Positions 2,632-58,264 of a stretch of DNA of 64,000 bases are shown here, piece by piece. Where the stretch lies: contig QCPL01000004.1 in NCBI GenBank assembly GCA_003212515.1, forward strand, positions 1 to 64,000. Reading direction: 5' to 3'. The position numbers and the translations under genes are program-made. This stretch comes from Prochlorococcus sp. AG-436-M02 (lineage in GTDB: Bacteria; Cyanobacteriota; Cyanobacteriia; PCC-6307; Cyanobiaceae). The stretch's first letter is position 1. Each line of letters opens with the position of its first letter. The notes below the pieces were generated by a model that worked only from the letters and a program-made list of their open reading frames with translations, was not told the DNA's origin and made no database searches.

Positions 2632-3786
2632 ATGATCACTACTCTAAATATAGTTTTTGTTGCAGTAGTGAATACAGGCTTGGATCTGGAAATTAGTTTC
2701 AATCATTTTCTAGAAGGCATTGGATTGCCCTCAAGTATTGCTCACCTTCTATGGTTACCACTCCCCATGCTTCTGGTTCTATCAGCAGCTCTCATAGGAG
2801 TACTTGTAACCGTTTGGCTTGAGAGAAAAATTTCCGCTGCCGCTCAGCAAAGGATCGGGCCAGAATATGCAGGGGCCTTGGGTATTCTTCAGCCAATGGC
2901 AGATGGACTCAAGTTACTAGTAAAAGAAGATATCATTCCTCAAAAAGCAGATAGTCTACTTTTTACTCTTGGTCCAGTTTTAGTTTTAATTCCAGTAATT
3001 CTTTCTTGGTTAATTGTTCCCTTTGGCCAAAACTTGCTTATTAGCAATGTAGGAATTGGGATTTTCTTATGGATTGCTTTAAGTAGTATTCAACCGATTG
3101 GTCTATTGATGAGCGGATATGCTTCCAATAATAAATACTCTCTCTTAGGTGGACTACGAGCAGCTGCTCAATCAATCAGCTATGAAATTCCTCTTGCTTT
3201 AGCTGTATTAGCAGTAGTGATGATGAGCAACTCTCTTAGTACGATTGATATTGTTAATCAACAAAATACAGCTGGATTCTTAAGCTGGAACATCTTCAGA
3301 CAACCTATTGGCTTTTTAATTTTCTGGATATGTGCTCTTGCTGAATGTGAACGACTCCCATTTGACCTCCCAGAGGCAGAAGAAGAGCTTGTTGCTGGAT
3401 ATCAGACTGAATATGCAGGAATGAAATTTGCTCTGTTTTACTTAGGAAGCTATATAAATTTAGTTTTATCTTCATTATTAGTATCAGTTCTCTATTTAGG
3501 TGGATGGGGCTTCCCAATCCCAATCGAATTAATAGCAAATATTTTAGGTCAATCCGCTAATGATCCAATCATTCAAATCATTACAGGCTCTATAGGAATA
3601 ATGATGACAGTATTCAAAACTTACTTATTGGTTTTCTTAGCAATATTGCTTAGATGGACAACCCCAAGAGTAAGAATAGACCAACTACTTGATCTAGGAT
3701 GGAAATTCTTACTTCCTATTTCACTAGTCAATTTACTATTTACTGCTGCTTTAAAACTCGCTTTCCCCGTTGCCTTTGGTGGATAA
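2632..3786 (+). CDS. ndhA: NAD(P)H-quinone oxidoreductase subunit 1 (NdhA)
   Basis: Membrane subunit of thylakoid NDH-1, equivalent to complex I ND1/NuoH, at the junction with the peripheral arm near the plastoquinone site. The 384-residue protein is strongly hydrophobic with about eight membrane segments. It carries the ND1 loop motifs [18 protein letters not shown] (around residues 64-81) and [19 protein letters not shown] (around 239-257), whose acidic residues are typical of the family. The ATG lies 33 bases after gltA. It heads the ndhA-ndhI-ndhG-ndhE cluster, as in other cyanobacteria. The N-terminal 15 or so residues look extended, and a slightly later start is possible. Confidence 0.95.
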
Positions 3787-3908: not shown

Positions 3909-4520
3909 ATGGTTAACTTTTTTGAGAAAGCAACTGACTATACACGAAATGCAATAAGCGCAGGCAAGTACCTTTTGCAAGGTTTAGCAGTTACCTTTGA
4001 TCATATGCGCAGACGGCCTATTACCGTCCAATATCCATATGAAAAGTTAATCCCTTCAGAAAGATATAGAGGTAGAATTCACTATGAATTTGACAAATGT
4101 ATTGCCTGTGAAGTCTGTGTAAGAGTTTGCCCAATTAATTTACCTGTAGTCGACTGGGTAATGAATAAAGAAACAAAAAAGAAAGAGCTTAGAAATTATT
4201 CAATAGATTTTGGAGTCTGTATATTTTGTGGAAACTGTGTTGAATATTGCCCAACCAACTGTCTTTCTATGACTGAAGAGTATGAACTTGCAGCTTTTGA
4301 TCGACATAGCCTAAATTTCGACAACGTAGCTCTAGGTAGGCTGCCTACTAATGTAACTACAGATCCTTCTGTCATAGCTTTAAAAGAATTACCTTATCTT
4401 CCTGAAGGTGTCATGGACCCTCATGAATTAGAAGAAGGCAGTAAAAGAGCTGGGAAACTCCCTTCTGAAGTACTAACTAACAAAAAGGATAAAGCTCCTA
4501 TAGGAGAACAAAAGAAATGA
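3909..4520 (+). CDS. ndhI: NAD(P)H-quinone oxidoreductase subunit I, 2[4Fe-4S] ferredoxin type
   Basis: Peripheral-arm subunit of NDH-1 that relays electrons from ferredoxin towards plastoquinone through two [4Fe-4S] clusters (NuoI homologue). Both cluster motifs are intact: [12 protein letters not shown] near residues 64-75 and [12 protein letters not shown] near 104-115. The N-terminal segment [23 protein letters not shown] is the usual NdhI membrane-contacting part. Length of 203 residues is normal, with a charged Lys-rich tail. The ATG at 3909 follows a 122-base gap after ndhA, and the stop overlaps the ndhG start in an ATGA. Confidence 0.96.
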
Positions 4521-5119
4521 CTATCGCTACGAGTACAGAATTAATATGTTTTTTAATTCTTTCAAGCATAATCGTTGGAGGTGGGATTGGTGTTGTATTA
4601 ATTGAAAATATTGTTTATTCAGCTTTTCTACTTGGCGGTGTGTTCATGTCAGTAGCTGGATTATATCTACTTTTGAATGCGAGTTTTGTTGCCGCAGCCC
4701 AAGTTTTAGTTTATGTAGGAGCTATAAATGTTCTAATTCTTTTTGCAATAATGTTAGTAAATAAGCGAGAACCATTAAAACCAATAAAAGGTTTAAAAGT
4801 TAGAAAATTTTTCTCTGGTTGTGTTTGCGCCGGACTTCTTGCTCTTCTCTTTAGAGTAGATATAACAACAAAATGGTCCACACCAGGTCCTCAAGCTATT
4901 GGAGAAATAGCTACGGAAAGAATAGGAGAACATTTATTTACTGATTACCTTCTACCATTTGAATTAGCCTCAGTACTCTTATTAATGGCTATGATTGGTG
5001 CAATAGTATTAGCTAGAAGGGATACTAGATCAATTCAATTAGAAGAAATCGACCCCGTCAGAGAGAATGTTATTAAGAGTTCAAATAGTAATGTCTTAAT
5101 TGATCAATCTCCTGATTGA
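4517..5119 (+). CDS. ndhG: NAD(P)H-quinone oxidoreductase subunit 6 (NdhG)
   Basis: Membrane subunit of NDH-1 (NuoJ/ND6 homologue), 200 residues with about five hydrophobic segments. The motif [22 protein letters not shown] near residues 59-80 is typical of the family. The start overlaps the ndhI stop by four bases, implying translational coupling. The last dozen codons lie in the left arm of a perfect 31-bp inverted repeat, and the TGA at 5117-5119 lies in the right arm, so a ribosome finishing ndhG must melt that structure. Confidence 0.94.
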
Positions 5120-5144
5120 TCAATTAAGACATTACTATTTGAAC
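5079..5144 (+). repeat. Perfect 31-bp inverted repeat with 4-base loop at the ndhG/ndhE junction
   Basis: Bases 5079-5109 are the exact reverse complement of 5114-5144, leaving a loop of TCCT. Each arm contains a 10-base palindrome centred on TGATCA. The left arm encodes the C-terminus of NdhG, the right arm carries its stop codon, and the repeat ends 14 bases before the ndhE ATG. There is no T-tract after it, so it is not a standard intrinsic terminator. It would form a very stable mRNA hairpin. Confidence 0.97.
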
Positions 5145-5158
5145 ATAGACTTAGTAAA

Positions 5159-5485
5159 ATGTTTAATTCTCAAGAACTAATACCCCTAAATGCATACTTA
5201 TTAATTGCATCAATACTTTTTTGCATAGGTGTATGGGGCTTAATTAATAGTAGGAATGCAGTTCGTGTTTTAATGAGTATTGAACTAATGTTAAATGCAG
5301 TCAATATAAACTTAATGGCATTTTCATCTTATATTGATGGCAACATCATAAGAGGGCAAGTATTTACAGTATTTGTTATTACTGTTGCAGCTGCAGAAGC
5401 AGCTGTTGGATTAGCAATCTTACTTTCTTTATATAGGAATAGAACGACAGTGGATATGGAAAGTTTTAATCTACTAAAATGGTAG
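5159..5485 (+). CDS. ndhE: NAD(P)H-quinone oxidoreductase subunit 4L (NdhE)
   Basis: Small NDH-1 membrane subunit (NuoK/ND4L homologue) of 108 residues with three membrane helices. The family pattern is clear: [20 protein letters not shown] with [12 protein letters not shown] following, then [20 protein letters not shown] near the C-terminus. The buried Glu residues of helices 2 and 3 used in proton pumping are present. The ATG at 5159 lies just after the long inverted repeat. nadK follows after 10 bases. Confidence 0.95.
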
Positions 5486-5495
5486 GTATAAAGAA

Positions 5496-6428
5496 ATGAA
5501 ACTTGATTTAGTATGGATAATATATAAATCAAATAGTCAATCAGCAAAAGAAGAAGCCATTTTATGTTCGGAAAGTCTTAGCTCTTTAGGTGTAGAGGTT
5601 ATTTCATCAGAAAGTGGTTTAGAATTTAATCCATTCCCAAATCTTTTAAGCGAAACGAATCGACTCCCTAATCTTGCCATTATTCTTGGTGGAGACGGAA
5701 CAGTTCTTGGCGCAGCTAGGCATCTTTCAATACATACAATACCTATTTTAAGTTTCAACGTTGGTGGCAATCTTGGATTCCTTACCCATGATCAACAATT
5801 ATTGAGAAGCAAAGATCTATGGGTAAAACTAAAGAAAGATCAATTCTCTCTTCAAAATAGAATGATGCTTGAAGGGAAATTAGAAATAAATAAGACAAAG
5901 AACAATGAAATTAAAAGAAAAAATTTATTTTGGGCGCTAAATGATATCTATTTTCGTTCTTATAGAGATGAAATTTCCCCAACATGCTCACTTGAACTAG
6001 AGATCGATGGAGAGGCTGTAGATATATACAAAGGTGATGGCTTAATTTTGTCAACTCCAACTGGATCAACCGCTTATGCAATGGCTTCAGGGGGTCCAAT
6101 TCTTCACCCTAGTGTTGAAGCAATTGTTGTCAGTCCAATATGTCCCATGAGCTTATCAAGCAGATCCATTGTAGTTCCAGCAGGATCTAAACTCATAATT
6201 AAACCGGTTGGCAACAAAAATCCTAGAGTTAAAATTTGGCAAGATGGTGTTGGTCAATCGCTTCTTCAAGAAGGGGAAAGATGTCTAATTCAAAAAGCAA
6301 AACAGCATGCCTTGATGATCAAACTAGAAAAAAGCTCCTCCTACTACAGAACACTCACAAAAAAACTTCATTGGGCAGGAAGCTTAGTTAATGGTTCAAC
6401 TGAAAAAAAAATGCAAAATGCCCATTGA
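5496..6428 (+). CDS. nadK: NAD kinase
   Basis: Phosphorylates NAD to NADP, setting the NADP pool for photosynthetic electron flow. The 310 residues include the family signatures LGGDGTVLG (around residues 65-73), NVGGNLGFLTHD (around 88-99) and the nucleotide-binding TGSTAYAMASGGPILHP (around 190-206). Length is normal. The ATG at 5496 is 10 bases after ndhE, so it probably shares that transcript, a linkage common in picocyanobacteria. Its last 11 bases overlap the start of the CYTH gene. Confidence 0.95.
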   Translation: MKLDLVWIIYKSNSQSAKEEAILCSESLSSLGVEVISSESGLEFNPFPNLLSETNRLPNLAIILGGDGTVLGAARHLSIHTIPILSFNVGGNLGFLTHDQQLLRSKDLWVKLKKDQFSLQNRMMLEGKLEINKTKNNEIKRKNLFWALNDIYFRSYRDEISPTCSLELEIDGEAVDIYKGDGLILSTPTGSTAYAMASGGPILHPSVEAIVVSPICPMSLSSRSIVVPAGSKLIIKPVGNKNPRVKIWQDGVGQSLLQEGERCLIQKAKQHALMIKLEKSSSYYRTLTKKLHWAGSLVNGSTEKKMQNAH

Positions 6429-7201: not shown

Positions 7202-7445
7202 AACCATCTCTACAAATTTTTCCATGATCCATGGCCCAATTTAATAGAGCAACTCGATTCTTAGAACCAGTTTTAGTAAACATATTGCTCACATGATTAT
7301 CTACAGTACGTTTACTGATAGTTAACTTTTGAGCTATCTCTTGATTAGTTAGCCCATCAGCTACAAGTTCAATAATCTCCATCTCTCTTGCAGAAAGGGA
7401 CATTTGAACAGAATTAGAGAAATCCCCCGAAAACATGCCCTCCAT
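7152..7445 (-). CDS. pedR: Small LuxR-type regulator, PedR-like
   Basis: A 97-residue stand-alone LuxR/GerE helix-turn-helix protein: SAREMEIIELVADGLTNQEI, followed by the recognition helix region ISKRTVDNHVSNMFTKTG. No receiver or ligand domain is present. Size and sequence match PedR of Synechocystis, a regulator that responds to photosynthetic electron transport through its redox state. The C-terminal tail holds three cysteines (GKICRDGFNCCSL), consistent with thiol sensing, which is inference here. The ATG at 7445 is 38 bases from the divergent metF start, so the two promoters share a very short region. Family is sure; the PedR name is probable. Confidence 0.8.
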   Translation of the reverse strand: MEGMFSGDFSNSVQMSLSAREMEIIELVADGLTNQEIAQKLTISKRTVDNHVSNMFTKTGSKNRVALLNWAMDHGKICRDGFNCCSLPDDEPSATDD

Positions 7446-10724: not shown

Positions 10725-12401
10725 TTAATAGCCAGAGGAGCTATAAATATTTAACTTTGGGGCTGATGAAGTAGATGGTAGAAAAGTCTTATCATAGTTT
10801 TTACTCTCAGATGTATTAACTATTCTTTCGACAGCTAGTTTATCTCTAGCAACAAGTCCATCTATAGAAGCGGTATAAGTTTCCGTCATAATTCTTGGGT
10901 ACAAGCCTATTCCAATAATGGGTACAAGAAGGCTAGCAATTATATAAATTTCTCTTGGCTCAGCATCAACAAGTTCTCTCTTCGCAAGAAGTTCAGTATT
11001 TTCTTTGCCAAAGAAGATTTCTCTCAACATAGAAAGTAAATAAATAGGTGTAAGAATGACTCCAATGGCAGCAAGCCCTGCTATCACAATTCGAAACGGA
11101 AGGGTATAAACCTCATCAGTAACCAAACCTGCAAAAACCATCAACTCTGACACAAAGCCACTCATTCCAGGAAGAGCTAACGAAGCTAATGAGCACACAG
11201 TCCAGAGGGCAAACATAATTCTCATTTTCTGGCCAACTCCGCCCATCTCATTTAATTGAAGAGTATGAGTGCGATCATAGGTTGCTCCAACTAAGAAGAA
11301 TAAGCTCGCACCAATTAATCCATGGCTAATCATCTGAAGCATTGCTCCGCTTGTTCCTAAAGAACTAAAGCTACCTATTCCAATCAAAACAAAACCCATA
11401 TGACTTATAGAGCTATAGGCAATTTTTCTTTTCAAATTCCTTTGAGCAAAAGAAGTAAGAGCTGCATAAATGATATTTACAACTCCCAAAACGATTAATA
11501 AAGGAGCAAATTGGGCATGAGCAGCTGGTAGCAATTGAGCATTAAATCTTAAAAGTGCATATCCACCCATCTTCAATAAAATTCCTGCTAAAAGCATATG
11601 AACAGGGGCAGTAGCTTCCCCATGTGCATCTGGCAACCAAGTGTGTAAAGGAACTATTGGTAGCTTTACACCAAAAGCAATAAGCAAACCTCCATAGCAA
11701 AGCAATTGAAAACCTGTACCAAAATTTTGATTTGCTAAGTGAGTAAATTCAAAATTTGGAGCACCTCCTCCAAAAAAGCCCATCGCCAAACCTGCAAGAA
11801 GAATAAAAAGAGAACTTCCTGCCGTATAAATTATGAATTTAGTCGCTGCATATTGTCTTTTTTTGCCTCCCCAAATTGCTAGAAGCAAATAAACAGGTAA
11901 TAATTCTAATTCCCAAGCTAGAAAAAATAAAAGCATATCTTGAACAGCAAAGACAGCTATTTGGCCTCCATCCATAGCCAAAATTAAGAAGAAAAATAAC
12001 TTGGGCTTAAAGCTCACAGGCCATGCTGCAAGAACCGCCAAAGCAGTAATAAAGCTTGTCAAAAGAATTAACGGCATCGAAAGGCCATCAGCACCCACAG
12101 ACCATGTGAGGCCTAGGTCTGGCAACCATTCAATCCGCTCAGATAGCTGCAGCCCTTCTTGAGATGGATCGTACCCTTTTAAATATGCTCCAACAGTTAT
12201 TAAAAAAGTAATTAAAGCTATTCCTAATGCATACCATCTAACTTGTTTACCTTCTCCTTCATCAGGGAAAAAAGGCACTAGGAGAGATCCTCCTATTGGA
12301 AAGAGAATGGAAAGCGTTAACCAAGGGAAATCCAATGAAATAGGGTCTGGAACCTGGCCAGGGATAATTGCACCCAATGAAACTGGAACAAAATCAAACA
12401 C
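10725..12401 (-). CDS. ndhD: NAD(P)H-quinone oxidoreductase chain 4 (NdhD)
   Basis: Antiporter-like proton-pumping membrane subunit of NDH-1 (NuoM/ND4 homologue). The 558 residues form about 14 membrane helices, including the conserved [20 protein letters not shown] (Glu on helix 5) and [20 protein letters not shown]. The family pattern [20 protein letters not shown] is intact. Pairing with ndhF just upstream (100 bases) indicates the respiratory NDH-1L-type NdhD1/NdhF1 module. Starts at a GTG (12401). The C-terminal tail of about 40 residues after the last helix is Ser-rich and poorly conserved. Confidence 0.95.
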
Positions 12402-16354: not shown

Positions 16355-16979
16355 CCTCCTGATTAACTCTTATTCCCTCTTCTTCAACGCCTTTAATAAT
16401 AAACTTATTGTCATTTACATCAGCTTGGTAAACACATCTTACAATTGGGTTATCTCTAATGGAGCCAATGTAAGCAAAGGTATTCATCCTTTGCTTACAT
16501 TCTCTAACATCTTCATTAGTAATTGCTCCTTGCTTCTGCAAAAGCGACCAATTCTCTCTTCTAATAACACATCCAGGCTGTAGAGCTGGTTGCGTGACAA
16601 AGCTAGTAGAAGGGTTGAGTGTTGTATACATTTCAATATCTATAACAAAAGCACTAGCTCCCCATTGTCTGCAAAATTCTGGATCTGGTACTGCCATATC
16701 TAATTGCTGTTGACTTGCAATATTGCCAGAGCCTCCTTGAGAAGTACTTGTAATAGCACTTCCAATTCCAACTCCCAATACAAGAACTCCTGCAAGCACA
16801 GCGATTGTGCCTGTATTCATATTCATCCCCTTACCATCTCGACCTGAGGTATTTCGAGATCCTGGTCCATATGAACTGCCTAAAGAACGATTTTGAAAAC
16901 GATCTCTAGTATTTCCAAATTGAGAATTTGTATCTCTAGATGACGGCCGTTGAGAAGACCTGTAAGGAGGACGATTCAC
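16341..16979 (-). CDS. DUF3172 family protein with one membrane anchor
   Basis: 212 residues. The first 50 are Arg, Ser, Asn and Gly-rich and look disordered; one transmembrane helix follows at about 56-78 ([20 protein letters not shown]). The rest is a soluble domain with four cysteines ([36 protein letters not shown]) that may form disulphides if extracytoplasmic. This matches cyanobacterial DUF3172, function unknown. The GTG start overlaps the ndhM stop in a GTGA, so it is translationally coupled to ndhM; a role linked to NDH-1 or thylakoids is only a guess from this position. Confidence 0.75.
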
Positions 16980-18871: not shown

Positions 18872-19783
18872 ATGAATCCCTTAAATTTAGTAAATCTAGA
18901 TAATGCCTACGAAATTTGTAGAAAAGAAACTGCTCAGTGGGCAAAAACATTCTATTTAGGAACACTTCTTCTTCCACCGATTAAAAGAAAAGCAATTTGG
19001 GCAATATATGTATGGTGCAGAAGAACAGATGAACTAATGGATAGTGAAGAAGCTCAAAAACGTTCGAAATCAGAATTAGCGGACAGACTCAACGACTGGG
19101 AAATACGAACAGAAGAAATTTTCAAAGGGAATGTTCACGATGAATTAGATCATGTAATGGCAGATACAATAGAAAACTTTCCTCAATCAATTCAGCCATA
19201 TCTAGACATGATTGAAGGGCAACGAATGGATCTAGAAAAGACTAGATACAAAACATTTAAAGAGCTTGAACTTTATTGCTACAGGGTTGCAGGGACTGTA
19301 GGCCTTATGACCCAAAACGTTATGGGTATAGATCCTGCATATACAAGTGCTCCGTGGAGTGAATGTCCTGACCCCTCCAAAGCAGCCATTGCACTTGGGA
19401 TAGCCAACCAACTCACTAATATCCTTCGAGACGTAGGCGAAGATCGATCAAGAGGTCGAATTTATTTGCCTCAGGAAGATCTTCAAAAATTTGGATATTC
19501 CGAAGAAGATCTAATTGAAGGCAAAATTAATACTGAATGGAAAAGACTTATGGCATTTGAGTTAAAAAGAGCAAGAGAATGGTTTTCAGTTTCAGAAGAA
19601 GGGGTTAGATGGCTTTCTGCAGATGCTCGATGGCCAGTATGGACATCTCTAAGATTGTATAGAGGAATTCTTAACTCAATAGAAAGACTTGATTATGATG
19701 TTTTCAATAATAGAGCTTATGTAAGTAAATTTATGAAAATAATAGAACTTCCAATTAGCTATGTAATTGCTCAAACAAAATAG
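18872..19783 (+). CDS. crtB: Phytoene synthase
   Basis: Condenses two geranylgeranyl diphosphates head to head into 15-cis-phytoene. Both aspartate-rich motifs are present: RRTDELMDSEEA near residue 50 and NQLTNILRDVGEDRSRGRIY near 180-199, with the trans-isoprenyl synthase helix pattern throughout. 303 residues, typical. Directly downstream of pds and probably cotranscribed. Converges on the RRM gene with 24 bases between stops and no evident terminator hairpin. Confidence 0.96.
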   Translation: MNPLNLVNLDNAYEICRKETAQWAKTFYLGTLLLPPIKRKAIWAIYVWCRRTDELMDSEEAQKRSKSELADRLNDWEIRTEEIFKGNVHDELDHVMADTIENFPQSIQPYLDMIEGQRMDLEKTRYKTFKELELYCYRVAGTVGLMTQNVMGIDPAYTSAPWSECPDPSKAAIALGIANQLTNILRDVGEDRSRGRIYLPQEDLQKFGYSEEDLIEGKINTEWKRLMAFELKRAREWFSVSEEGVRWLSADARWPVWTSLRLYRGILNSIERLDYDVFNNRAYVSKFMKIIELPISYVIAQTK

Positions 19784-39034: not shown

Positions 39035-40255
39035 TTAGTTTTTCACTACATATTTGAAAATCAAATTATTTATCGAAGCAGCTATTCTTTTGGTTCCACC
39101 TTTTTCACCTAGTCTAGATAATCCCTTCTTGAGACAAGCCTCTTTAAATTGAGAATCTTGAATTAAATTCGAAGAGATTTCTACAATTAAATTAGCCGTA
39201 TCTAAACATAAATTTCTTTTATTTGAATATTTCTTTTCTGCGCAAAAAACAGTTTTTCCAAGTAATCTTCTCTGAGCTTCGGCAAAAGAAGAAGTGAATT
39301 GAGGTCCTTTCCCTGGAAGCTGAATAACTGGTTTACCCAAGCCAACTGCTTGTTCAGCAGCAGTTCCAGCCATACATAATAAGAGATCACTACTCTGTAG
39401 AAGCTCTGCAAAAGAATTTCTGTGAACTTTCAAGTAAGAAGTTCCATTAATCAATTCTAGATAAATTGTGTTATAAGACTGTTTAAAAGTACTCCAATCA
39501 TAATGAGATACTAAAGCTATAAATTCTTCATCACGAATTGAATTAACCAATGCAAGGTCAAAACTAAAATTTGAATCAGATACAAACGAATTGGGCAAGC
39601 ACTTCAAAACCCGCAAAATCATTAACAAGTTTTGATCCAACTCTGGACGGCGACTACCAGGCAAAATTCCTAATCGAAAAACCTTCTTAGGGAATTGATT
39701 CTTTGGAGTCAAAACAGGGTCCATGAATGGGTTCCCTAAAAAAGCTACTGGTCTATTTAGTTGAATTGTTAGGTCTTTAGCAGTTAAATCATCACGGCTA
39801 TAAATCTCTAAAACACGATTACTTTTCAAACAAATTGAAGCTGGCCATGGTAAACGTAATTTACCCTCATAATGGCTAGAATATGCAACTAAATAAACGG
39901 CTATTTTTCTTTTACTAAGCCAAGCTGCAAAAAGTGGAACTACATCGCCAACAACAATTAAAAGATCATAACTACTCGCAATATTTAATAATAACAATAA
40001 ACTTCTAAAAAGATAAAAAATCTGACCTTGAATTAATTCCGTAAATCTACCAATTAAGCTTGTATATCCAATCCCACCAGTACTAAATTCCTGCCTAAAG
40101 CCATGTATCTGAATTCCTACATTTTGGTAAGCATTTCCTTTCCCAACAAAAGGAAATGCTTCAACCTCATGACCTATTCTTTTCAATTCAATTCCTAATA
40201 ATGCACCAGAAACATCTTCTCCATGTCCATTACTTATAAGAAGAAGCCTAGCCAA
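39035..40255 (-). CDS. Lipid-A-disaccharide-synthase-related protein (TIGR03492-like)
   Basis: GT-B fold protein of 406 residues conserved in cyanobacteria. N-terminal LLLISNGHGEDVSGALLGIE, YDLLIVVGDVVPLFAAWL, then LGILPGSRRPELDQNLLMIL and CMAGTAAEQAVGLGKPVIQL. The last two parallel the donor-binding region of LpxB and MurG. Picocyanobacterial lipid A is unusual, so the acceptor is uncertain. Start is a TTG at 40255, one base after the TPR gene's stop, so coupled to it. Confidence 0.8.
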   Translation of the reverse strand: MARLLLISNGHGEDVSGALLGIELKRIGHEVEAFPFVGKGNAYQNVGIQIHGFRQEFSTGGIGYTSLIGRFTELIQGQIFYLFRSLLLLLNIASSYDLLIVVGDVVPLFAAWLSKRKIAVYLVAYSSHYEGKLRLPWPASICLKSNRVLEIYSRDDLTAKDLTIQLNRPVAFLGNPFMDPVLTPKNQFPKKVFRLGILPGSRRPELDQNLLMILRVLKCLPNSFVSDSNFSFDLALVNSIRDEEFIALVSHYDWSTFKQSYNTIYLELINGTSYLKVHRNSFAELLQSSDLLLCMAGTAAEQAVGLGKPVIQLPGKGPQFTSSFAEAQRRLLGKTVFCAEKKYSNKRNLCLDTANLIVEISSNLIQDSQFKEACLKKGLSRLGEKGGTKRIAASINNLIFKYVVKN

Positions 40256-56878: not shown

Positions 56879-58264
56879 GTGTGGAATGAAACGCCTCAAG
56901 AGAAAGCATTTTCTTCCCTTAGAGAGAAGTCTCTAAGGGAAGCTCCTCTCAACCCAGCTTTAGTAGAAGCTGTACAGGAAAACTCAATAGGAGAAGATTT
57001 GGGTTTCCAGCCAGGGGACAAATTATTGTCTATCAATGGAAATCAACCTCGAGATCTCATTGACTATAAATATTTAATCGCGGACGAACTCTTGAAACTT
57101 GAAATTTTAGATGAAAACGAGAAGATCCATACTATTGAAATTGAGAAGAATGTTGATGATGACTTAGGGCTAATCTTTACTGAAGTCTTATTTGATGGTC
57201 TGAAGCAATGCAATAATCATTGTTCTTTTTGTTTTATTGATCAACAACCTGATGGTCATAGAAGCACCCTTTATTTAAAAGATGACGATTATCGAATGAG
57301 TTTTCTATATGGTTCATATTTAACACTAACGAATCTACAGCAAAAAGATTGGGAACGAATTGAGCAACAACGCTTGTCTCCTTTATTTGTCTCAGTTCAT
57401 TCAACAAACTCAAATCTAAGAGCACAATTACTGAAGAATAAAAGAGCAGGAGTAATTATGAAGCAAATAGAATGGTTTTCAGAAAGAAAACTTCAATTAC
57501 ATGCTCAGATTGTTGTTTGCCCTGGCTTAAATGATTCAGACAATCTTGAAAAAACACTAAATGATCTATTCATTTATGCCCAAGGAGACTGGCCCACAGT
57601 ATTATCTGCTGCTGTAGTTCCAGTTGGCTTAACAAGATTTCGTCCATCAAATGATGGTCTTAAACCTGTAGATAAAATGTGTGCCCGCAAAGTAATTGAA
57701 ATAGTAGAAAAACTACAAAACTCTTACCAATCATCGATTGGGAAACGATTTGCATGGCTTTCAGATGAATGGTATTTGCTATCACACCAAGCACTACCTT
57801 CCAAACAAGAATATGAGGATTTTCCTCAAGAAGAGAATGGAGTGGGGAGCATTCGTTCATTTCTAGAAAGTATGGAACAAGCAACAAGCAAACTCCCAAA
57901 GAGAATTAGCAGAAAGAAAAACTCTAGTTGGGTAGTAGGTAAACTAGTAGAAAAAGCTCTCAGTCCAATAGCAGAAAGAATGAATCAAATTGAAGGATTA
58001 ACTCTGAACCTATTTGGACTAAAAAGCCCATACTGGGGTAAAGAGAATGTGGTTACTGGACTTCTGACAGGAGAAGATATAATTACTGGTCTAATAAACA
58101 AAGAAATTGGAGAGGAACTACTATTACCTTCAGTCATGCTAAAACATGGGGAACCAACTTTTCTCGACGACATGACTGTTGAAACGGTAGAAAAGGCACT
58201 TCACACTAAAATTAGAATTATTTACTCTCCCAATGATTTTGTTAAGGCTTTGATCAATAATTAA
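56879..58264 (+). CDS. TIGR03279 family radical SAM protein (DUF512), cyanobacterial
   Basis: 461 residues. A PDZ-like N-terminus (about 25-75, ENSIGEDLGFQPGDKLLSIN, then GNQPRDLIDYKYL), a CxxxCxxC cluster motif in CNNHCSFCFIDQQPDG near 111, and a C-terminal DUF512 part with LLTGEDIITGL. This is a putative Fe-S oxidoreductase conserved in cyanobacteria with unknown reaction. Start is a GTG at 56879, the only candidate before the PDZ-like region. A perfect 13-bp hairpin lies within the first 22 codons. Confidence 0.85.
   Translation: MWNETPQEKAFSSLREKSLREAPLNPALVEAVQENSIGEDLGFQPGDKLLSINGNQPRDLIDYKYLIADELLKLEILDENEKIHTIEIEKNVDDDLGLIFTEVLFDGLKQCNNHCSFCFIDQQPDGHRSTLYLKDDDYRMSFLYGSYLTLTNLQQKDWERIEQQRLSPLFVSVHSTNSNLRAQLLKNKRAGVIMKQIEWFSERKLQLHAQIVVCPGLNDSDNLEKTLNDLFIYAQGDWPTVLSAAVVPVGLTRFRPSNDGLKPVDKMCARKVIEIVEKLQNSYQSSIGKRFAWLSDEWYLLSHQALPSKQEYEDFPQEENGVGSIRSFLESMEQATSKLPKRISRKKNSSWVVGKLVEKALSPIAERMNQIEGLTLNLFGLKSPYWGKENVVTGLLTGEDIITGLINKEIGEELLLPSVMLKHGEPTFLDDMTVETVEKALHTKIRIIYSPNDFVKALINN
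56913..56942 (+). repeat. 13-bp perfect hairpin within the first codons of the TIGR03279 gene
   Basis: CTTCCCTTAGAGA (56913-56925) pairs exactly with TCTCTAAGGGAAG (56930-56942) around a GAAG loop, 34 bases after the GTG start. It encodes part of the poorly conserved N-terminus. As mRNA it would be stable enough to slow initiation. Confidence 0.85.

Follow-up and report, generated by a model that had tools for sequence, protein, structure and literature searches.

A conserved hairpin at the ndhG-ndhE junction of a Prochlorococcus genus, a candidate non-terminating mRNA barrier

Introduction

In Escherichia coli, protected segments of operons are marked by stable hairpins that lack a uridine tract. 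In the part of the source cited here, such operon-internal hairpins are held to block 3′-to-5′ exonucleases, and they often lie in coding sequence and are often conserved (PMC5927463). Together with the malE-malF hairpin and that of Rhodobacter pufBALMX, this set is the nearest known kind to the structure described below. Long stems may also have a different origin, since RNA hairpins are reportedly created and maintained by template switching, or quasipalindrome correction, in the cited part of PMC8794818.

The window analyzed here is a 64-kb stretch of Prochlorococcus sp. AG-436-M02 DNA with a hairpin at the junction of ndhG and ndhE. The hairpin shares with the protective hairpins, as far as the cited report describes them, its stability, its location between operon genes, the lack of a uridine tract, its partly coding arms and its conservation in related species. 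In the E. coli set, 17 of 26 hairpins lie inside the downstream gene according to the same part of that report (PMC5927463), whereas the ndhG hairpin lies at the end of the upstream gene. It also differs in having the stop codon of the upstream gene in the stem and in being AT-rich (G+C of 9–30% across genomes). With template-switch hairpins, as characterized in the cited part of PMC8794818, it has in common long Watson-Crick arms, changes that improve pairing and few mismatched intermediates. It is unlike them in being near-perfect in several genomes, whereas five control hairpins were each perfect in one genome only. REP/BIME sequences are palindromic elements at intercistronic sites, with many copies per genome. 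The ndhG hairpin is likewise palindromic and intercistronic, but it is present at one locus only in AG-436-M02 (an 82.8%-complete genome), and a multi-copy repeat of this type was ruled out.

Materials and Methods

Fourteen genomes of the same genus were compared. The ndhE gene was matched in nine of them; the other five, with no ndhE match, were 67–77% complete. The scan of the window took in perfect stems of 10 bp or more whose loop measured 3–12 nt. The gap-free covariation alignment had 24 + 4 + 24 columns for all nine genus sequences, the inner 24 nt of the left arm (5086–5109) being the part aligned across the genus. The tree was built from the first 170 residues of NdhG together with NdhE, with 49 of the 110 loci for which the junction was read. 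The survey for control hairpins covered 400 kb of the 1,501 kb of AG-436-M02, 400 kb of the 1,789 kb of G004 and the 64-kb window. The five control hairpins were not obvious terminators, and homologous pairs were counted with G-U as paired.

Results

One strand of the window carries, in this order, ndhA, ndhI, ndhG, ndhE and a NAD kinase gene (Table 1). The ndh letters are those that we take to correspond to the NuoH, NuoJ and NuoK families. From the gene order, ndhA-ndhI-ndhG-ndhE are presumed to share one transcript. The original prediction had placed a perfect 31-bp inverted repeat with a 4-nt loop over the ndhG stop codon, 14 nt before ndhE. This proved exact: at 5079–5144 two 31-nt arms are 100% complementary and 4 nt apart, and 31 of 31 pairs are Watson-Crick.

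Table 1. Features of the ndhG-ndhE region in the AG-436-M02 window
Feature	Position	Strand	Remarks
ndhA	2632–3786		Same strand as ndhG
ndhI	3909–4520		Same strand as ndhG
ndhG (NuoJ family)	4517–5119	+	NCBIfam NF005163; final codons make the left arm
Left arm, 31 nt	5079–5109	+	Codes for NdhG C-terminal residues
Outer left arm (pairs 25–31)	5079–5085	+	Partner 5138–5144; per-position pairing, nine genomes
Loop TCCT, 4 nt	5110–5113	+	Sequence differs among relatives
Right arm, 31 nt	5114–5144	+	Contains the ndhG stop and spans most of the gap to ndhE; changes in concert with the left arm
ndhG stop codon TGA	5117–5119	+	Within the right arm
Outer right arm	5138–5144	+	Pairs with 5079–5085; per-position pairing, nine genomes
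Spacer, helix to ndhE start, 14 nt	5145–5158	+
ndhE (NuoK family), next cistron	5159–5485	+	NCBIfam NF004322
NAD kinase gene	5496–6428		Same strand as ndhG

Six perfect stems were found in the window, and the ndhG-ndhE stem was the only one longer than 14 bp. The longest perfect stem across 12 simulated windows was 13 bp. The predicted RNA fold of 5060–5180 had an energy of −52.6 kcal/mol vs. a shuffle mean of −17.75 (z −11.58), and none of 200 shuffles equaled it. Pairing far beyond chance had been claimed in the earlier note. The 8 bases 3′ of the stem are ATAGACTT, in agreement with the reported absence of a T-tract. A genome search for further copies of the arm had been proposed; in AG-436-M02 (82.8% complete, E ≤ 0.001) no second copy was detected, and the other match was the repeat's own reverse complement.

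The hairpin was present on the same axis in all nine genus genomes in which ndhE was found, with stems of 13–31 bp, and in all of them the pairing is centered on the four bases preceding the last sense codon of ndhG. Counted from the loop outward, the helix extends over 31 pairs in AG-436-M02, 24 in G013, 23 in each of G003, G009 and G004, and 14 in G012. With mismatches it reaches 26 in G010 (one), 13 in G002 (one, plus a G-U) and 21 in G005 (three near the loop, which break the loop-proximal pairs). The G002 value of 13 was obtained by allowing G-U and one mismatch, whereas a strict scan gave 8 pairs. The junctions of G009, G003 and G005 are identical to those of L033 (AG-402-G10), L034 (AG-412-P08) and L057 (AG-436-C13), respectively. 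The earlier note had raised the case of relatives without a hairpin; none was found among the nine genus genomes with the locus, and a strain-specific duplication was ruled out.

In the tree, in which several forks were weakly supported, the 10 hairpin rows (nine genomes and one duplicate) formed a single clade with support of 94/89. The hairpin score, taken in a 66-nt frame that shortens the AG-436-M02 stem, was 10–23 inside the clade vs. 9 or less in all 39 rows outside it. No hairpin was detected in those 39 rows, which include the sister lineage L035 (AG-402-G22). On the simplest reading of these sequences, the hairpin probably has one origin, at the root of the genus. The tail of NdhG in the genus (window 5060–5119) lacks LIEK/LIEQ, a motif present upstream of the last residues in the outgroup tails L012, L035, L040 and L049.

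The original prediction had proposed a check for compensatory arm changes in relatives, and these were found. Over the 24-pair helix and nine sequences 87.0% of cells are paired, and 12 of 24 pairs, in 23 cells, are changed on both sides, vs. 1–6 pairs and 1–8 cells when the arms are slid. The covariation score was 0.340 vs. 0.038–0.107 for the slid structures. On four of five measures none of 500 shuffles reached the observed value, and 4 of 500 did so on the fifth. RNAalifold, run on eight of the nine sequences with flanks (G002 left out), arrived at the same helix; both partners were changed in 9 of its 23 pairs. Summed over the nine genomes, helix positions comprise 185 Watson-Crick, 8 G-U and 5 mismatched pairs; one pair is A-U in five genomes and C-G in four, with no intermediate. 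On a topology hand-written from the 49-row tree, the left arm takes 31 parsimony steps and the right arm 37, so that both arms change. For template switching to explain changes in both arms, more than one event would be needed. A further basal helix toward the ndhE start, predicted for AG-436-M02, G013 and G010, was absent from the consensus fold and was discarded.

The earlier note had left a choice between a recent duplication and a maintained mRNA structure. The hairpin in nine of nine genomes and the covarying arms favor the structure, but part of the former alternative may hold for the outermost 5–7 bp. These form a continuous helix in AG-436-M02 only (G010, the next longest, extends to pair 26), and they may be a recent copied extension. 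A protein-binding palindrome was rejected, because the outer arms vary in sequence yet stay paired; the inner core TTGATCAA alone hardly varies, which may be a consequence of coding (LIDQS).

Perfect arms alone are not proof of selection, because template switching can create and repair them, and covariation by itself could likewise arise from template switching without function. Since template switching is able to make perfect stems, other long perfect hairpins were compared as a control. In the surveyed part of AG-436-M02 there were six other perfect stems of at least 16 bp (loops 3–16), three of them (L136 and two in L150) being set against relatives. In G004 there were 14 stems of at least 14 bp, of which L131:16870 and L113:11191 were compared. 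Of the remaining G004 stems, ten lie outside reading frames, several with A/T tracts, L131:11860 (15 bp) lies in frame, and the last is the ndhG hairpin itself.

The L136 control (10909–10957, contig C2 of AG-436-M02), an inverted repeat of 18 bp without mismatch, falls within a long reading frame. Of the two L150 controls (contig C15 of AG-436-M02), each with a perfect 16-bp stem, 7238–7276 is at the end of a gene and 19689–19723 lies within a reading frame. In the single-contig G004, the controls are L113:11191–11237 (18 bp) and L131:16870–16911 (19 bp), both perfect and situated within a reading frame or where one begins. No perfect copy of any of the five was detected in relatives whose alignment spans the hairpin, and 19–82% of pairs were retained over the five hairpins from two genomes. 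For L136, 8–14 of 18 pairs were retained (5 of 9 in one relative; nine of nine relatives spanned); for L150:7238, 7–10 of 14–16 (nine of nine spanned); for L150:19689, 3 of 16, with just one of 11 relatives spanned; for L131:16870, 9–12 of 19 (four of 11 spanned); and for L113:11191, 11–14 of 17 (11 of 11 spanned). A free search for any repeat near the control sites in relatives gave up to 13 pairs. AG-436-M02 has a 10-pair repeat at roughly the same position as the L131 hairpin, and one of 12 pairs lies in G012 close to the position extrapolated for L150:19689.

At the ndhG site, 63–100% of pairs were retained in relatives, and at least 90% in five of eight. Over the inner 24 pairs, the five best relatives retained 20/21, 23/24, 21/21, 21/21 and 19/21, and G012, G002 and G005 retained 15/24, 15/24 and 15/20. 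The inner 14 pairs were retained at 11–14 of 14 in all eight relatives. In nine outgroups, 5/24 to 12/24 pairs were present at this site, with 3/10 and 3/14 where gaps intervene. The hairpin is thus near-perfect in six genomes (AG-436-M02, G013, G010, G003, G009 and G004) and partly paired in three. Two controls reached 14/18 and 14/17 in their best relatives, equal to or above G012, G002 and G005 at ndhG, and the partial pairing of L113 weakens a clean contrast. L113 has the look of an ancient imperfect palindrome, made perfect in G004.

In L136, the left arm of AG-436-M02 is unlike that of all nine relatives compared and is complementary to the right arm; it is the putative footprint of an arm copied by template switching. 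The L135 stem of AG-436-M02 has shorter repeats in relatives (score 10–13 in six of 11, 6–8 in the others), and it looks like a terminator that lengthened. For the L138 and L149 stems, no relative aligned across the hairpin.

These data suggest that (i) template switching seems to make perfect hairpins in this genus and is the likely source of the matched arms at ndhG; and (ii) the ndhG hairpin was probably retained as a structure, rather than being an isolated accident. That it was kept near-perfect while the controls were not, a contrast of degree, is our main ground for selection keeping it.

Discussion

The ndhG hairpin most likely shapes the protection or the cutting of a multi-gene message. 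We favor, with a probability of ∼0.42, a conserved intercistronic hairpin, gained once and kept, that would act as a non-terminating mRNA barrier of the malE-malF/puf kind and whose arms would be matched in part by template switching. The pair-retention control lowered this estimate from 0.45. We infer that the ndhA-ndhI-ndhG-ndhE message would be cut in or downstream of ndhE, and that 3′-to-5′ exonucleases would stall at the hairpin. Much as at malE-malF and puf, the ndhA-I-G segment would then outlive the rest. A processed ndhE message might also have its 5′ end shielded. Template switching at the DNA level would copy one arm onto the other, keeping the arms partly matched, and selection would retain the products.

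The hairpin lies at a cistron boundary (in genes whose co-transcription is predicted), is conserved in nine of nine genomes and has no uridine tract in eight of nine, with 0–3 T among the 8 nt 3′ of the helix in these and 6 in G002. The spacer from the helix to the ndhE ATG is 14–26 nt in all nine genomes, so that the ribosome-landing zone of ndhE would be left open. A role in stability was favored over an RNase III site or a lowering of ndhE translation because the hairpin stands 14–26 nt clear of ndhE and stems are short in some relatives. The same short stems (14 bp in G012, 13 bp in G002) and the three loop-proximal mismatches of G005 also speak against a barrier, as does the translated left arm, which each passage of a ribosome melts. 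NDH subunits are expected in equal amounts, so there is no obvious use for unequal mRNA stability, and this is a weak point of the barrier reading.

A rather unlikely alternative, which the pair-retention control made somewhat more probable, is a functionless, self-renewing palindrome: template switching during replication would keep recopying the arms, which would stay matched and covary with no gain to the cell. The perfect Watson-Crick pairing of AG-436-M02, the scarcity of G-U and mismatched pairs over the nine genomes and the A-U/C-G pair without an intermediate are as this explanation predicts, and the arms do show the pattern reported for template switching (PMC8794818, in the part cited), namely arms paired by Watson-Crick rules, in which changes preserve the pairing or make it better. 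AG-436-M02 and G004 also have other perfect hairpins at or in reading frames that are imperfect in relatives, and L113 resembles a quasipalindrome perfected in one genome. However, the five controls were never perfect in spanned relatives, and the process alone was not seen to keep a helix near-perfect across genomes; the similar amount of change in the two arms and the fixed axis also argue against it. A doubtful yet conceivable intermediate position is that of a self-mending palindrome, in which template switching during replication would amount to gene conversion between the arms. It would take precedence over the NdhG-tail coding sequence and preserve a matched helix over the history of the genus, and covariation would record a DNA mutation process coupled to an mRNA function.

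Stems of 21–31 bp, a suitable length for RNase III, are present in seven of nine genomes, and cleavage of the operon mRNA by this enzyme between ndhG and ndhE was considered. The 13- and 14-bp stems in two of nine genomes and the three mismatches in a 21-bp stem reduce the chance of a strict requirement for RNase III, and no inner bulge is common to the genomes; we regard such a site as improbable. Equally poor odds are given to a translational insulator, by which the hairpin would block ribosomes leaving ndhG from restarting on ndhE, and independent initiation would replace coupling by overlap. In the sister lineage L035 stop and start overlap (gap −4) and the hairpin is absent, and the nine genus members have gaps of 32–40 nt within which the greater part of the right arm lies. 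However, hairpin-free gaps (L013–L019, 22–45 nt) occur in other genera of the family, and the ndhE start is outside the helix. Termination or attenuation between ndhG and ndhE, called unlikely in the original prediction, is very improbable: the hairpin is strong and lies at a gene end, as intrinsic terminators do, and ATTTTTTC follows its G002 version, but the other eight genomes lack a T-tract, the G+C content is very low, ndhE begins directly after, and the terminator scan did not place the ndhG-ndhE hairpin among its predictions. An intrinsic terminator, with its G+C-rich stem and T run, was rejected accordingly. Inverted chimeras are typical of whole-genome amplification, and AG-436-M02 is a draft of 53 contigs, 82.8% complete and probably from a single cell. 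An assembly or amplification artefact is nevertheless barely credible: the hairpin is found in nine separate genomes with differing arm sequences, two of them (G002 and G004) single-contig, and both flanks run on into the expected genes; just the outermost 5–7 bp depend on the AG-436-M02 draft alone. A read-through across the ndhG stop that would join NdhG to NdhE was also discarded: the 39-nt gap of AG-436-M02 would keep the frame, but gap length is divisible by three in just four of the nine genomes.

At gathering score, Rfam matched only a tRNA in the window and no described RNA family at the hairpin. In titles and abstract openings, with subscription papers outside the scope, no cyanobacterial ndh-operon hairpin of such kind was described. 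As far as can be told, the ndhG-ndhE hairpin is newly described, and mRNA-protecting hairpins are a kind already known. NDH-1 drives cyclic electron flow. If the hairpin controls decay, NDH-1 would be subject to a post-transcriptional control peculiar to this genus, in an organism that, according to the cited part of PMC2518516, has few regulatory proteins. Perfect hairpins of single genomes beside a genus-wide one form a natural series in which selection can be separated from template switching in RNA stems. If the self-mending palindrome is real, the locus would be a natural case of how far "compensatory" stem changes are single mutational events.

Other repeats were observed in the survey. 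L138:17171–17252 (AG-436-M02, contig C3) is a stretch of ∼60–80 bp found at 83–91% identity in 13 of 14 genus genomes including AG-436-M02, with several copies in some, and it had no Rfam match. L149:1–53 (AG-436-M02, contig C14) is a contig-end sequence present at seven other genus sites, three of them at contig starts, and it behaves as an assembly-breaking repeat would. In G004, three perfect stems of 25–27 bp with A runs in the arms lie outside reading frames (L114:15211–15273, L114:16730–16782 and L113:18744–18799), and they may be long two-way terminators. Within the window, perfect 13–14 bp stems at 16467–16501, 40129–40161 and 56913–56942 lie in reading frames; they equal or exceed the simulated-window maximum and are possible small template-switch events.
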